From a bacterium (GTDB lineage Bacteria > Desulfobacterota > S145-22), in contig JALSPC010000123.1 in the NCBI GenBank assembly GCA_026986155.1, forward strand, positions 1 through 34,158: 34,158 nucleotides of DNA, read 5' to 3'. Position 1 is the stretch's first letter. Each line of letters starts with the position of its first letter. The notes under the pieces were generated by a model. That model did no database searches, was not told the origin of the DNA, and was given only the letters and a program-made list of their open reading frames with translations. A program made the position numbers and the translations under genes. Below are positions 4,601-34,158 of the stretch, piece after piece.

Positions 4601-6565
4601 TCACGCGGGAGATGTTTCCAAGACCTCTTTGACCGCCATTCCCAGGATCTGGATACTGAAGGGCTTTTTGATGAACCTGGCCACCCCGGACTGAAGGGCG
4701 ATCTTCACCTTGTCGCTTTCCGAGTACCCGCTGACGAGAATGGTCTTCTGGCCGGGCCGAATCTTGATAATCTCCCTGTAGGTTTGCAGTCCGTCCATCC
4801 CTGGGTCCATCACCATGTCCAGGAGAACCAGGTCCACCGCGTGATCCCTGAGATATTCCAAGGCCCTTTCACCGCTGTCGACGGCGGCGACCTCGTAGCC
4901 GAGATGTGACAGGATCTGTCCGTTGATATCCCGCTGCAAGGGTTCATCGTCCACGATGAGGATTTTCCCCGCTCCCCTCAGGTCGGGGGTGTCTCTCATC
5001 TTTTCCCGCGACTTGTTCTCCCGTGACGCGGGCAGATAGACGGTGAACCGGGTGCCGCGCCCCTCTCCGCTTTGGACGGTGACCGTGCCGCCGTGCTCAT
5101 GGATCGTGTTCCAGACCACCGCCAGCCCCAGGCCCGTGCCGCTTCGTCCCAGGACCTTCTTGCTGTAGAAGGGTTCGAAGATATGGCTTGCGTCCTCCGG
5201 CGAGATTCCGTGTCCCGTGTCTTCCACGTCCAGGGTGACATAGCGGCCGGGCGCGAGGAGCTCCGTGCCGGGCGGCCCGTCCTTTTCCTCGATGAAACAA
5301 GTCCCCGTGGTGAGGGTGACCCGCCCCTCCGACGCGATGGCCTCGAAGGCATTGTTAATCAGGTTCATCAGCGCCTTTTGAATGTGCACGGTGGAGACCT
5401 CACAGGCCGGAAGGCCGTCAGCGGGGTTGAAGCTAAGTTTGATCTCCGGGTAACGGGACACGAGCCCCTTGAACTCGGGGGACGCGAGGTGGCTTTCCAC
5501 CAGTTCGTTGATACACACGACGTCTCGCTCCGAGGCCACGCCTCTCGCCACGGTCAAAAGGTCCGCGACCACGGCCGCGGCGCGGTTTCCCGAATCCCTG
5601 ATAGCCTCGGCGTATTTTCTCAGGTCGCTTTTTACGGGGAGTTTCATCAACATCAGTTCGGGGTAAGTTATAATGCCGGAAAGGATTTTGTTGAGATCAT
5701 GGGCCACGCCGCCGGCCATCAAACCGAGGGATTCCATCTTCTGGTGACGGGCAAGCTGACCTTGAATGCGGGCGCGTTCCTTCTCCAATCGGCCGCGTTC
5801 CCTGATTTCTTGTAGGAGTTGCTGGTTGATTTCACGGAGTTGCCGAGTTCTTTCCCGCACCCTCTCTTCGAGATGCGTCTTGGCCTGCTGGACCTTGTCG
5901 CGTTCGATTGCCAGGAGATGCTTCCGGTAGAAGTCCCGGCGGGAGTGAAATTCAATCAAATAACAAGCGAGCATGCCGATGAGGTTGGCGCTGATGAAGA
6001 AAAAATTATTGTTGATGAGCACGGGTGTCGGCGTGTCGGCGATAAAGAGGGAAGCCGTTTCATAGAGCAAAACGAGAATCCACCCGGCGAGCGAAGCCCA
6101 GACAAACCGCAGGGTTGTGGACGTATATCCAAAAATGATAATGAGAATCAGGCCGGCATAGTAAGAGTAGGCCACGGGAGGGCGCGACAGCACGATCATC
6201 AGGACAATGCCAATTCCCGCGATAATTTCGATGGCCGCGATGGAGGGTTGCGCGATTTTCTTGAAATCCTTGTGAAAGGTTCCAAAGAACATGCCCAGGA
6301 TCAGGGGACAGATGAAGGCATACCGAATCAGCCAGAAAAGGTATTTTTTCTCGGGGATGAGATAGGCGTCGAGGATCCCGAAGATCGCGTAGAAGAGGAG
6401 GGCCAATGGGAGGATGATCCTGACAATTGGCAGGATGACGTTGAAATTTTCTTCAATAAACCTTTTTTCGAGAGATTCTTGACTCCCGGTAAAACTGAGG
6501 GTCAGGGGATGCAGGAGAATCCCTTCGAACTTCGCGCCGGCCCTGTCTTTTTCCCCTTTTTCCAT
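4601..6565 (-). CDS. Hybrid sensor histidine kinase with C-terminal receiver
   Basis: 654 aa. Six likely transmembrane segments fall at about residues 43-65, 77-97, 109-126, 133-147, 157-176 and 185-205. A coiled coil (~212-275) links them to the kinase. The H-box is AHDLNKIL with His289 as phosphoacceptor. The ATPase domain has LINNAFEA (N-box, ~402-409), DTGHG (449-453) and GTGLGL (476-481). A receiver follows from ~533 with Asp539/Asp540, Asp583, Ser612 and Lys634, all expected residues being present. No periplasmic sensor domain is visible, so the signal is probably sensed in or at the membrane. No partner regulator is adjacent, and the receiver may hand phosphate to an Hpt protein elsewhere. 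Transcription is divergent from the polyprenyl synthase. The RBS is poorly placed (AGGGG about 12 nt before the ATG), so the exact start is less certain. Confidence 0.9.
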   Translation of the reverse strand: MEKGEKDRAGAKFEGILLHPLTLSFTGSQESLEKRFIEENFNVILPIVRIILPLALLFYAIFGILDAYLIPEKKYLFWLIRYAFICPLILGMFFGTFHKDFKKIAQPSIAAIEIIAGIGIVLMIVLSRPPVAYSYYAGLILIIIFGYTSTTLRFVWASLAGWILVLLYETASLFIADTPTPVLINNNFFFISANLIGMLACYLIEFHSRRDFYRKHLLAIERDKVQQAKTHLEERVRERTRQLREINQQLLQEIRERGRLEKERARIQGQLARHQKMESLGLMAGGVAHDLNKILSGIITYPELMLMKLPVKSDLRKYAEAIRDSGNRAAAVVADLLTVARGVASERDVVCINELVESHLASPEFKGLVSRYPEIKLSFNPADGLPACEVSTVHIQKALMNLINNAFEAIASEGRVTLTTGTCFIEEKDGPPGTELLAPGRYVTLDVEDTGHGISPEDASHIFEPFYSKKVLGRSGTGLGLAVVWNTIHEHGGTVTVQSGEGRGTRFTVYLPASRENKSREKMRDTPDLRGAGKILIVDDEPLQRDINGQILSHLGYEVAAVDSGERALEYLRDHAVDLVLLDMVMDPGMDGLQTYREIIKIRPGQKTILVSGYSESDKVKIALQSGVARFIKKPFSIQILGMAVKEVLETSPA

Positions 6566-21976: not shown

Positions 21977-22447
21977 TTAAAAAATCTTCAGGCTCTCCTT
22001 CTTGAACTCGCGCGTGCTGAACAGGAGCCGGTATCCGGAGATCCCCGTCTTCTTCGAGAGTCTCTCCGCAATCCGCTCGCAATCCGCCTCCGTCTCCCCG
22101 TGGATCATGGTGTAGAGGTTGTAGGGCCAGTGTTCCACCGGGTCGCGGTGATAGCAATGGGTCACCCCCGGGTCCTCCGACATCATCTTTCCCACGCGTG
22201 TGATGTCGTCCTCCGGGACTCTCCAGACGCCCATGGCGTTGGCCTTGACCCCCGCCCTTCGGTGGCGGAGGATGGCCCCCATGCGCCGGATGATACCCCG
22301 GTTCATCAAATCTTCCACGATGGCAAGGACCTCCTGCTCGGTGAGCCCCGCCTTCTCACCGATGGCGGCGTAAGGACGGGGGCTTAAGGGCAAATCCCCC
22401 TGGATTTCCCTGAGAACAGCCCTTTCTTTTCCGGATAGTTCGATCAC
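21977..22447 (-). CDS. Siroheme decarboxylase subunit (AhbA/AhbB family), Lrp-like
   Basis: 156 aa. The start is a GTG at 22447 whose last bases overlap the stop of the upstream gene (GTGA). The N-terminal winged helix ([14 protein letters not shown] to GIIRRMGAI) is Lrp/AsnC-like, and the C-terminal domain has [17 protein letters not shown] and [22 protein letters not shown], typical of AhbA/AhbB/NirDLGH. Those proteins decarboxylate siroheme to didecarboxysiroheme in the alternative heme (or heme d1) pathway of sulfate reducers and archaea. The enzyme normally works as an AhbA-AhbB pair and only one member is here. Adjacency to hemL supports a heme role over a transcription-factor role. Confidence 0.85.
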
Positions 22448-23223
22448 CTCTCCGCCCTCATCACCGGGTTGGTCAGGGAGCCGATCTCCTCGATGGTTAC
22501 GGTCACTTCGTCCCCGGGCTGCATGGGTCCGATCCCCGAGGTGGTCCCGGTGGCGATGACGTCGCCGGGCAGCAGGGTCATGACGCGCGAGATGAAGGCG
22601 ACGAGGGTCTTCACGGGAAAGATGAGCTGGCTCGTTCGTGTCGATTGCATCACCTTTCCGTTGAGCTTCGTGGTGAGCGCCAGGTCGGAAGGGTCGACGC
22701 CCCGAACGAGGAAAGGCCCCAGGGGGGCGAAGGTATCGAAGGATTTCGCGCGGGTCCACTGCTTGTCCTTGTATTGCAGGTCTCGGGCCGTCACATCGTT
22801 GAAACAGACGTAGCCGGCGATGAAGGCACCGGCATCGTCTTTCGATACGTCCTTCGCCCGCTTGCCGATGACGACTCCCAGCTCCCCCTCGTAATCGACC
22901 CTTTGGGACATGGAGGGAATTACGATGGGCTCACCGGGGGCGATGACGGCCGTGGAGGGCTTGAGGAATATCAGCGGCTCCTCGGGGAGTTTCAGTTTGA
23001 CCTCCTCCGCGTGGTCCCTGTAGTTCAGGCCGATGGCGACGATCTTGGAGGGACTGGCCGGCGGCAGGAGCCTCACGTTCGCCAGCGAAACGACCGCCTC
23101 CTCTTCCTCGAAACCATCAAGCGGGTTCCCGCGGAGAAGACGCATCGTCTCCTTGTTCATCAAGCGCCCCCACGATTCCTTTTCCTCCAGGTTGAAACGG
23201 CAGAACCTCTCAATCTCAGCCAT
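22444..23223 (-). CDS. Fumarylacetoacetate hydrolase-family protein
   Basis: 259 aa. It has the FAH fold with [16 protein letters not shown], the metal-binding glutamates in [11 protein letters not shown], the [14 protein letters not shown] segment, and the C-terminal [13 protein letters not shown]. Members hydrolyse or decarboxylate 2-oxo/diketo acids, or hydrate 2-oxopent-4-enoates, with Mg2+ or Mn2+. The substrate cannot be assigned. It is the first gene of the long minus-strand run and overlaps the siroheme decarboxylase by 4 nt. Why it sits with heme and ATP-synthase genes is unclear. Confidence 0.87.
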
Positions 23224-31084: not shown

Positions 31085-32401
31085 ATGTCAAAAGTGGTTG
31101 TAATCACGGATGATCCCGAAATAGAAAGGGATTTTTCTGGCAGGGCGCAAGGCATGGATCTCATGTTTATGCCCCCCCCTCTTAATGATCTTCTAAATAT
31201 GATTTACGAAACGAAACCGCTTTGTCTCCTTGTGGACACACGGATCCCGCGGCCGGAACGTTTGTTGGAGGCATTTACGCAGAATGGGTTTTACGCGCCT
31301 GTCATGGTTTTTTCCTCGAAGGTCTCCGCGCGGGCCACGTTCGCGGCGGCAAAAAAAATTTATTTTTCATCCGTATCCTCGGAAGAAAAGGAAACAGGTG
31401 AGAAAAACGCTGGCCTTCGATCCGACATTTCACTCATGGGATTGGAAAAGATCGTTGGGAAAAGTTCCGCATTGATAAATGTTTTGAAAACGGCGGAAAA
31501 GGTGGCCAAAACGGATTCCAATGTCCTCGTCTGTGGAGAGAGTGGGACGGGGAAGGAACTGATCGCTCATTTGATCCATGAGAACAGCCTACGCGCGTCC
31601 CGTCCCTTTATTCCCCTGGATTGCGCCGCTTTACCTGAGAGCCTACTTGAAAGCGAATTGTTCGGGTTTGAGCGGGGGGCGTTCACGGATGCGTATCGAA
31701 CCAAGCATGGCATTTTCGAATACGCGGACGGCGGGACCCTTTTTCTCGACGAAATTGGAGAAATGCCGATTTCCATGCAGTCGAAACTGTTACGCGTTCT
31801 CCAGGAACGGCAGTTCAGAAGGATCGGGGGGCGCCAACTTATTCGTGTCGATGTGCGCATCATCTCCGCCACAAACCGGGACCTTGTAAAGGCCATGGAT
31901 GAGAGGTCGTTTCGCCAGGACTTATTCTACCGCCTGAACGTCATTTCCATCTATCTTCCCCCTTTGCGGGAGAGGAAGGAAGACATTCCGCTACTCATCG
32001 AGCATTTTCTCCAACATTACTGCGAGGTCTTCGACAAATCCTTAAAGAAGGTTTCCCAGTCCGCGCTTGCCCAGATGGAGGCGTACCCGTGGCCAGGCAA
32101 CGTCCGGGAGCTTCAGAATGTTATCGAACAGGCAGTGGCGCTTTCCGAGGAGGAGATTTTGCTGCCGGAAGATCTTCCCGAAAGGATCCGGGAAATGGAG
32201 GGATGCGGTTCAGGAGCTTTGGACTTGAGCCTTCCTTTCGAGGACGCGAAGTGCCGTCTCATTGAGACCTTTGAAAAGAAATATCTGGAAAACCTGATGG
32301 AATTTTGCGGGGGAAACGTTTCTCTAGCCGCGAGAAGGGCGGGTGTTAACCGCAAGACGATTCACCGGCTACTCAAAAAACATGGCTTGTTGAAACGGTA
32401 A
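31085..32401 (+). CDS. Sigma-54-dependent activator with degenerate receiver
   Basis: 438 aa. The N-terminal ~100 residues look like a receiver with Asp9/Asp10 and Asp51, a Ser at 77/78, but no recognisable Lys-Pro near the end of the domain, so phosphorylation control may be altered. The AAA+ domain has Walker A GESGTGKE (151-158), the sigma-54 loop GAFTDA (198-203; consensus GAFTGA), Walker B GGTLFLDE (216-223), and the arginine-finger region FRQDLFYRLNV. A Fis-type HTH lies at about 409-435 (GNVSLAARRAGVNRKTIHRLLKKHG). No partner kinase is adjacent. The next gene, 260 nt downstream, has a sigma-54-like promoter and an upstream dyad and is its likely target. Confidence 0.92.
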   Translation: MSKVVVITDDPEIERDFSGRAQGMDLMFMPPPLNDLLNMIYETKPLCLLVDTRIPRPERLLEAFTQNGFYAPVMVFSSKVSARATFAAAKKIYFSSVSSEEKETGEKNAGLRSDISLMGLEKIVGKSSALINVLKTAEKVAKTDSNVLVCGESGTGKELIAHLIHENSLRASRPFIPLDCAALPESLLESELFGFERGAFTDAYRTKHGIFEYADGGTLFLDEIGEMPISMQSKLLRVLQERQFRRIGGRQLIRVDVRIISATNRDLVKAMDERSFRQDLFYRLNVISIYLPPLRERKEDIPLLIEHFLQHYCEVFDKSLKKVSQSALAQMEAYPWPGNVRELQNVIEQAVALSEEEILLPEDLPERIREMEGCGSGALDLSLPFEDAKCRLIETFEKKYLENLMEFCGGNVSLAARRAGVNRKTIHRLLKKHGLLKR

Positions 32402-32421: not shown

Positions 32422-32459
32422 GGGACACGGATGGGACACGTGGGACACAAATGTCCCAT
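32422..32459. promoter_or_regulatory. GGGACAC repeats and TGGGACA-N4-TGTCCCA dyad (enhancer candidate)
   Basis: GGGACAC occurs at 32422-32428, 32433-32439 and 32442-32448. TGGGACA (32441-32447) and TGTCCCA (32452-32458) form a perfect 7-4-7 dyad. Its centre is about 175 nt upstream of the predicted start of the next gene, a usual distance for sigma-54 enhancers. As RNA it could also be a terminator-like hairpin for the activator gene, but it has only a short T run. Confidence 0.6.
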
Positions 32460-32599: not shown

Positions 32600-32615
32600 C
32601 GGCATCGATTTTGCT
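32600..32615 (+). promoter_or_regulatory. Sigma-54 (-24/-12) promoter
   Basis: CGGCATCGATTTTGCT matches TGGCACG-N4-TTGCW at 9 of 12 defined positions. The invariant GG (32601-32602) and GC (32613-32614) have the correct spacing. Transcription would start near 32626, about 39 nt before the ATG at 32665. Confidence 0.65.
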
Positions 32616-32664: not shown

Positions 32665-34158
32665 ATGGACGTTATCATCGGGACGGATGACGAACAAATC
32701 TCGCAGATTGCCAGCACCCTTTTGGGTAAAGAGGGGATCGACTATCGTGTCGTCTCCGACTTCGATCTTTTCGTAGATCATCTTGACAAGCAGGATGTGC
32801 GCCTTGCCATCGTTGATTTTGATCTCCAGGGAATGGATGATTTCGGTTTCATTGATGCCGCGAAGAAATGGGGCAAGACGACCCGGTTTCTCGCACTGAC
32901 GGGAGATCATTCTTTCCAACTCGGGAAAAAGATCCGGGAAAACGGGTTTTTCTACCAGATTTTCAAGCCGGTGGACCAGAACGAGATGCACCAGGCCATC
33001 AAGTCGGCCTTTGGGGAGAAAGAGGATATCCCCGGGAAATTCCGGGTAAGGCTCCGCGACTGGCGGGGGTATCGTGAAAACGTGCCGTGCCTTGATGCGT
33101 GCCCCGTGCACACGGATGCCGGGAAATACGTGCAGCTCATCGCCGAGGAGCGTTTCGAAGAGGCGTATCTCGTGGCCCGTTCCCCGAACCCGGCGGCCGC
33201 GATTTGCGGAAAGGTCTGCGCGGCGTTTTGCGAGGACGCCTGCAGGAGAGGGAACGTCGATTCACCAATTACGATACGGGCGCTTAAACGTTTCGTGACC
33301 ACGCTTTTCGGCCCAGAATCCCGGAGTTCCGGAACCTATCGCCGACTCCTCGAGGGCGAACGGGACCCTGGAAATCAGTTGCCGTGGAACCTTCCCGCTC
33401 TTCAGGAACGGAAGATTGGAAAGGGAAGAAAAGTGGCGGTAGTCGGGGCCGGTCCCGCGGGCTTGGCCTGCGCGCACGATCTGGTCGTGATGGGCTTTCA
33501 GGTGACTCTTTTCGAGGCCTCGGGCGTGGTGGGCGGGGCGATGCGGCTGCATATTCCCGAATACCGGCTACCGAGAGAAACCATTGAAAAAGAAATCGAA
33601 GAAATATTGTCCCTGGGGATCGATCTCAGGTTGAACACCCCCTTGACGAAGGAATTCGGCATTCGCGAACTGCTGGCCGAGGGATATGAAAGCGTGTTTC
33701 TCTCCACGGGAGCCTTCAAGGGAACGGATCTCGATATCCCTGGAGCGGACCTGGACGGGGTCGTCAAGGCGGTCGACTATCTGCTAAACGCCAGTACGGG
33801 AAACTATCGGCTGGATCTTGGCAGGGATGTCATCATCGTTGGAGGCGGGCGTGTGGCCCTCGACGCGGCCCGCACGGCATGGCGGCACTTGACGGAGCTG
33901 CCTTTTTCTGAATCTCCCGACTGGGAGACGCTGGATGTGGCGAGGGATACCCTCCGGAGGGGGTTGAAACCGCGGATCATCTACCGTCGCTCCCTCGAGG
34001 AAATGCCGGCGGCTCAGACCATTCAGGGCCGGGAAGAGTTGGAAGAGCTGAAACGCGAGGGGATTGAGATACTCGATCTCAGGGTTCCCAAGAGAATCAT
34101 CGGGGAGAACGGTAAGGTCAAGGCCATGGTGTTCGACAGGGCGTCCAAGGCGACAGAT
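32665..34158 (+). CDS. Receiver domain fused to GltD-like Fe-S/FAD/NADPH oxidoreductase (3' partial)
   Basis: 498 codons, still open at the window edge. Residues 1-115 form a complete response-regulator receiver: Asp8/Asp9, Asp51 (AIVDFDL), Thr79 (ALTG) and Lys101 (FKP). Then comes the N-terminal Fe-S domain of the GltD/DPYD family, with Cys142 and Cys146 (CLDACP) and Cys181-x3-Cys185-x3-Cys189-x3-Cys193 (ICGKVCAAFCEDACRRG), and the conserved IRALKRF. The FAD motif KVAVVGAGPAGLA is at 256-268 and the NAD(P)H motif IIVGGGRVALDAAR at 390-403. Such modules pass electrons between NAD(P)H, flavin and Fe-S partners. A receiver at the front is unusual and suggests signal control of enzyme activity. 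GGGGGGGA precedes the ATG. The C terminus and any further domains lie outside the window. Confidence 0.88.
   Translation, partial: MDVIIGTDDEQISQIASTLLGKEGIDYRVVSDFDLFVDHLDKQDVRLAIVDFDLQGMDDFGFIDAAKKWGKTTRFLALTGDHSFQLGKKIRENGFFYQIFKPVDQNEMHQAIKSAFGEKEDIPGKFRVRLRDWRGYRENVPCLDACPVHTDAGKYVQLIAEERFEEAYLVARSPNPAAAICGKVCAAFCEDACRRGNVDSPITIRALKRFVTTLFGPESRSSGTYRRLLEGERDPGNQLPWNLPALQERKIGKGRKVAVVGAGPAGLACAHDLVVMGFQVTLFEASGVVGGAMRLHIPEYRLPRETIEKEIEEILSLGIDLRLNTPLTKEFGIRELLAEGYESVFLSTGAFKGTDLDIPGADLDGVVKAVDYLLNASTGNYRLDLGRDVIIVGGGRVALDAARTAWRHLTELPFSESPDWETLDVARDTLRRGLKPRIIYRRSLEEMPAAQTIQGREELEELKREGIEILDLRVPKRIIGENGKVKAMVFDRASKATD

Follow-up and report, generated by a model that had tools for sequence, protein, structure and literature searches.

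Among described systems, the NAD(P)-linked Rieske/cytochrome b complexes of Kuenenia are relevant to the locus studied here: two complexes with an NAD(P) oxidoreductase are known from this organism, with a modelled chain of four clusters leading to FAD and a proposed reduction of NAD(P)+ by electron bifurcation (PMC12954380). Receiver domains placed on metabolic enzymes have also been described, including receiver-thioredoxin reductase fusions of Mycobacterium-like and Heimdallarchaeota origin (PMC5847659). In this work, we analysed a stretch of 34,158 nucleotides, hereafter the window, at the end of which a receiver domain is joined to a GltD-like flavoprotein. A preliminary description of this DNA had regarded the receiver as complete and control of such an enzyme by it as a new type of receiver output, and we examined its anatomy, relatives, genomic setting and possible function.

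The fused gene is cut by the end of the window (Table 1), and contig C145 of the same genome supplies the remainder (L017:2-913), giving a full-length protein of 755 aa. A search of the genome itself matched the start of C145 to the last 46 codons of the window with 100% protein identity, and the two synonymous mismatches found in the overlap are like the strain differences that occur within a metagenome assembly. As the preliminary description had stated, a complete receiver stands in one frame with a GltD-family flavoprotein: besides the Pfam domains, residues D8, D9, D51, T79, K101 and P102 occupy the canonical receiver positions, the Fer4_20 region carries C142, C146, C181, C185, C189 and C193, none of which varies among the 20 Rieske-linked members compared, and the glycine motifs of both Rossmann regions were found. 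The C-terminus, encoded on C145, adds an RCLYC sequence and two [4Fe-4S] motifs; altogether, 16 cysteines are invariant in the Rieske-linked members compared (20/20), enough for four [4Fe-4S] sites. A structure model of the 498-aa fragment, built from 7 sequences (mean pLDDT 49.7, pTM 0.40), displayed the (beta-alpha)5 order of a receiver with low confidence, and a sequence search of the PDB with the receiver alone as query gave no match at E<=0.001. The YRR arginine pair typical of NADPH-binding GltD relatives is found in the window protein, and is missing from its fused homologue L081 (see below) and from most of the clade. The second Rossmann region (window 33820-34044, residues 386-460) and its homologues in the clade often lack YRR and carry insertions.

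Table 1. Features of the receiver-flavoprotein locus. Positions refer to the window, or to contig C145 where preceded by L017.
Feature	Position	Strand	Details
Sigma-54 (NtrC-type) activator	31085..32401	+	438 aa; Sigma54_activat 240 bits, HTH_8 (AAA+, Fis-type HTH)
Palindrome TGGGACA-N4-TGTCCCA	32441..32458	.	probable activator (enhancer) site
Sigma-54 promoter-like -24/-12 element	32600..32615	+	CGGCATCGATTTTGCT; score 18/20.5; 0.008 expected per gap of this size
Receiver-GltD-like flavoprotein ORF	32665..34158	+	498 codons, open at window end; first 498/755 codons
Receiver domain	32674..33003	+	Pfam Response_reg, residues 4-113, 42.1 bits (cut-off 30.2)
Fer4_20 domain	33079..33303	+	Pfam, residues 139-213, 61.9 bits
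FAD and nucleotide-binding Rossmann regions	33430..34128	+	Pyr_redox_2, residues 256-488, 62 bits; continue on C145
Overlap of window with C145 start	34020..34158	+	equals L017:1-139; 139 bp, two synonymous mismatches
Rieske protein	L017 922-1473		downstream of receiver-GltD
Cytochrome b	L017 1501-2838		
5-heme cytochrome c	L017 2839-4188		
NosZ, Sec-type	L017 4340-6283		TIGR04246, 803 bits (cut-off 625)
NosB-like protein	L017 6352-6975		
Protein of unknown function	L017 6994-7389		~130 aa, between nosB-like and nosD; no Pfam match
NosD	L017 7511-8953		
NosF-type ABC ATPase	L017 8950-9876		
NosL and ABC permease	L017, after NosF		

The preliminary description had named a frameshift or assembly joint near codons 115-130 as a possible origin of the fusion, by which a response-regulator gene would have been artificially joined to a gltD-like gene. 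The window gene is indeed cut by the contig end and requires joining to C145; however, the junction between receiver and GltD lies well within the contig and in a single frame. Furthermore, the same junction was independently recovered in L081, from a genome of another class (G229), whose protein matches positions 3-751 with 54% identity, is encoded by one ORF on one 54-kb contig, and has a similar linker between receiver and Fer4_20. On this evidence, chimera and frameshift were discarded, and the probability left to such an artefact is negligible.

The fusion was detected in only 2 genomes in approximately 680 genome searches (repeats included) of the host phylum, L081 having been discovered among 395 genomes sampled from that phylum, and the host class being represented by 6 genomes. 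A third fusion was not found in the classes of both fused genomes nor in the class of G149, and one search of genome contigs yielded no further receiver fusion; the classes of G293 and G025 gave no match at a strict cut-off that also missed their known receiver-less members. The possibility that many well-described proteins share this architecture, which the preliminary description had raised against its own claim, found no backing in these 2 genomes or in the literature search, where no title or abstract dealt with a protein having a receiver domain and GltD. Likewise, no receiver on a Rieske/cytochrome b-linked NAD(P) oxidoreductase appeared in the literature searched, whose scope left out most subscription journals. 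The term "new output type" was nonetheless overstated: since receiver-thioredoxin reductase flavoenzyme fusions are already described (PMC5847659), the category of output is not new, and the fusion would represent a new output of a known category.

With regard to the enzyme part, the glutamate synthase small subunit GltD was ruled out, because NCBIfam scores are far under the cut-offs (TIGR01316, 200 bits against 472; TIGR01318, 142 against 483, for the part encoded in the window) and the neighbours of the gene are Rieske, cytochrome b, cytochrome c and nos genes, not GltB. The full-length L081 protein also scored below both cut-offs, with 285 and 213 bits, respectively. The best solved sequence relatives of the flavoprotein are 9n5u, 9bov and 5jca (E 3e-70 to 7e-60). 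Receiver-less relatives encoded beside Rieske, cytochrome b and cytochrome c genes were found in many genomes, and in a tree of 38 sequences, 24 receiver-less Rieske-linked rows and the two receiver proteins formed one clade (100/100), within which the receiver proteins constituted one nested pair (100/100); synteny was inspected directly for most of the 24 rows, and L108-L112 and L115 were placed by close sequence kinship. This topology is compatible with a single gain of the receiver, which we consider probable, and the domain is absent from every other Rieske-linked member examined, including the nos-linked L116-L118. The receiver-less loci examined carry the GltD-Rieske-cytochrome b-cytochrome c block, in L047 and L052 with its genes in another order, and three of these loci (L116-L118) are full nos clusters. 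Therefore, of the earlier reading as a GltD-like NAD(P)H flavoprotein, the GltD-family fold is retained and the notion of a stand-alone enzyme, or of GltD itself, is not, as the clade is encoded with Rieske, cytochrome b and cytochrome c genes, and here within a nos operon. On the basis of synteny and homology, the protein is very probably the cytoplasmic NAD(P)-oxidoreductase subunit, with FAD and four [4Fe-4S] sites, of a Rieske/cytochrome b complex of the type known from Kuenenia.

The operon that continues on C145 (Table 1) corresponds to a Sec-dependent (clade II) nos cluster, its NosZ scoring above the TIGR04246 cut-off, and a PDB search with its Rieske protein gave 9rk3 and 9rk4 as best solved relatives, which are precisely the Rieske proteins from the two Kuenenia complexes. 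L081 and the window genome share the gene order sigma-54 activator, receiver-GltD, Rieske, cytochrome b, 5-heme cytochrome c, NosZ, NosB-like, small protein, NosD and NosF. The small protein was conserved in all the nos loci examined (5/5), with 40-52% identity to the copy of the window genome. Downstream of nosF, four clustered NosL-domain genes (L017 9886-15351) constitute an unusual NosL expansion; the domain occurs alone (9886 and 13435), with a cytochrome c (12658), or with Phenol_MetA_deg (13999). Elsewhere in the window, a NirDL-like siroheme decarboxylase homologue (21977-22759, minus strand), with AsnC_trans_reg2 and a NirdL-like HTH, adjoins a class-III aminotransferase. The sequences show that receiver and flavoprotein are fused, that the cofactor motifs and the operon are present, and that the protein descends from receiver-less ones whose genes accompany the same complex.

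The region upstream of the fused gene points to transcription with sigma-54, a conclusion that is well supported by the conserved elements found there. The palindrome located between the activator and the receiver-GltD gene is the sole exact copy in the 2.68-Mb genome, none being expected in the shuffled window, and it recurs in the equivalent gap of L081. In the matching place of that gap, L081 also has a -24/-12 element (AGGCATCGTGTTTGCT), likewise scoring 18/20.5, so that in each of the fused loci (2/2) a sigma-54 element directly precedes the codons of the receiver; the scoring weights applied to these elements are an approximation of the sigma-54 consensus made for this analysis. Among the receiver-less nos loci, a perfect-consensus TGGCACG-N4-TTGCT stands before GltD in L117 and L118, and a near-perfect one in L116. 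These three loci are full sigma-54 activator-GltD-Rieske-cytochrome b-cytochrome c-NosZ clusters whose GltD has no receiver. Homologues of the activator are syntenic in L081 and L116-L118. Residues 1-118 of the window activator gave no Pfam receiver match, this N-terminal portion of ~118 aa being receiver-like at best; the L081 activator has no receiver; and those of L116-L118 have a pseudo-receiver in which the Asp, the acidic pair and the Lys are replaced. As the activators are devoid of a full receiver, the receiver of the flavoprotein is the only full phosphorylation site of the window locus.

Our explanation overall, a receiver-tagged NAD(P)-oxidoreductase subunit with a phospho-gated electron branch, comes close to being probable. 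In the leading mechanism, the Rieske/cytochrome b core would oxidise quinol, one electron passing through the Rieske protein and the 5-heme cytochrome c to Sec-type NosZ and N2O, and the other through cytochrome b, the Fe-S chain and FAD to NAD(P)+; alternatively, the arm may run in reverse and deliver NAD(P)H electrons into the complex. As a high-potential acceptor, N2O would favour such a bifurcation on thermodynamic grounds. Asp51 could be phosphorylated by an unlinked histidine kinase or a small phosphodonor, and its phosphorylation would alter the packing of the receiver on the adjoining Fer4_20 domain, opening or closing the low-potential branch; transcription of the operon would presumably be under independent control by the neighbouring sigma-54 activator. 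Such phospho-gating of a respiratory arm is advanced here as a tentative proposal. Its furthest-reaching form seems unlikely to us, namely that two-component phosphorylation directly gates the Rieske/cytochrome b complex, switching quinol electrons between NAD(P)+ and the Q-cycle during N2O reduction, and that the receiver possibly reports the state of the complex to the receiver-deficient sigma-54 activator.

The comparison of the two receivers bears directly on phospho-gating. They are identical at 29 of 119 positions (~25%), versus ~60% for the rest of the protein, and the L081 receiver obtained 15.1 bits against Pfam Response_reg, below the cut-off of 30.2. This divergence, the change of Asp8 to Ala in L081, the want of an adjacent kinase among the genes examined, and the lack of a receiver in all other Rieske-linked members examined are what would be anticipated if the receiver, gained once, acted in docking or assembly independently of phosphorylation, or were decaying, and now only helped the protein to fold, dimerise or attach, free of any two-component input. 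Nevertheless, both receivers keep an open frame over their full length and align with hardly any gaps; Asp9, Asp51, Lys101 and Pro102 are identical, Thr79 is conservatively replaced by Ser, and the phosphorylation site of the window receiver is complete. Retention of the canonical residues is only marginally above what chance would give at this level of identity (P=0.09 for five residues, 0.03 for six), which hints at selection on receiver phosphorylation chemistry; given the diverged L081 receiver, with its Asp8 to Ala change and its score under the Pfam cut-off, phospho-control conserved between the two fused proteins is weakly supported. Around neither fused locus did the genes examined include a recognised histidine kinase, the neighbours of L081 being judged by eye from their ORFs. 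The window yielded a single kinase, 26 kb away (4601-6565, minus strand): a membrane-type hybrid histidine kinase with HisKA and HATPase domains, whose C-terminal receiver is intact. On balance, we regard the docking or decay role as doubtful, though worth serious consideration.

A further alternative is that the receiver binds the adjacent sigma-54 activator, so that nos transcription would receive feedback from the redox or phosphorylation state of the flavoprotein, an arrangement analogous to that of the flavoprotein NifL with NifA. In both fused loci the activator gene is the one just before the flavoprotein gene, the shared palindrome and sigma-54 element lying between them. The activator has no receiver in L081 and none recognisable by Pfam in the window. 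However, the flavoprotein receivers compared with the N-terminus of the window activator gave z scores of 1.2 and 0.4, versus 2.7 to 8 with L116-L118, and the latter loci have a pseudo-receiver activator, yet a flavoprotein without receiver. A link of this kind appears improbable. Transfer of the receiver from the adjacent sigma-54 activator was also considered, and the pairwise similarity scores were too weak to claim it.

If the receiver works as in the phospho-gating mechanism, two-component signalling would act post-translationally on an electron-transport complex, instead of on transcription or second messengers, in the route by which the greenhouse gas N2O is removed. Leaving the receiver aside, the Rieske/cytochrome b-linked GltD-like clade and the sigma-54-controlled operon suggest that NAD(P)-linked Rieske/cytochrome b complexes, discussed so far for anammox bacteria, may have a part in N2O respiration as well. 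The coupling of N2O reduction to NAD(P)+ reduction that we propose is testable.

With respect to known systems, NfnA of the Bfu-type enzymes (9n5u), the 9bov chains and the large subunit of NfnI (5jca) share with the flavoprotein a GltD-type Fer4_20 and FAD/NAD(P) core; unlike it, they have no receiver and belong to soluble bifurcating or FDH/Nfn complexes with no Rieske protein or cytochrome b. Thioredoxin reductase is a different flavoenzyme, without Fe-S clusters and outside respiratory complexes. Its receiver fusions resemble ours in that a receiver is joined to a pyridine-nucleotide flavoprotein (PMC5847659). Closer in setting are Kuste4570 and Kustd1483 of Kuenenia, each an NAD(P)/FAD protein that contains several [4Fe-4S] sites and whose gene accompanies those for a Rieske protein, cytochrome b and a multihaem cytochrome c; the 16 invariant cysteines match the four-cluster chain modelled for these complexes (PMC12954380). 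This likeness is drawn from the published descriptions and from the PDB matches of the Rieske partner to 9rk3 and 9rk4. The passages describing the Kuenenia proteins mention no receiver, and the terminal partner is a HAO-like cytochrome, versus NosZ here (PMC12954380). Finally, the operon has the NosZ (TIGR04246), NosB-like, NosD, NosF and NosL genes of clade II nos clusters, and differs from them in that a sigma-54 activator and the GltD-Rieske-cytochrome b-cytochrome c block precede these genes, the first gene of the block being receiver-tagged in two genomes only.
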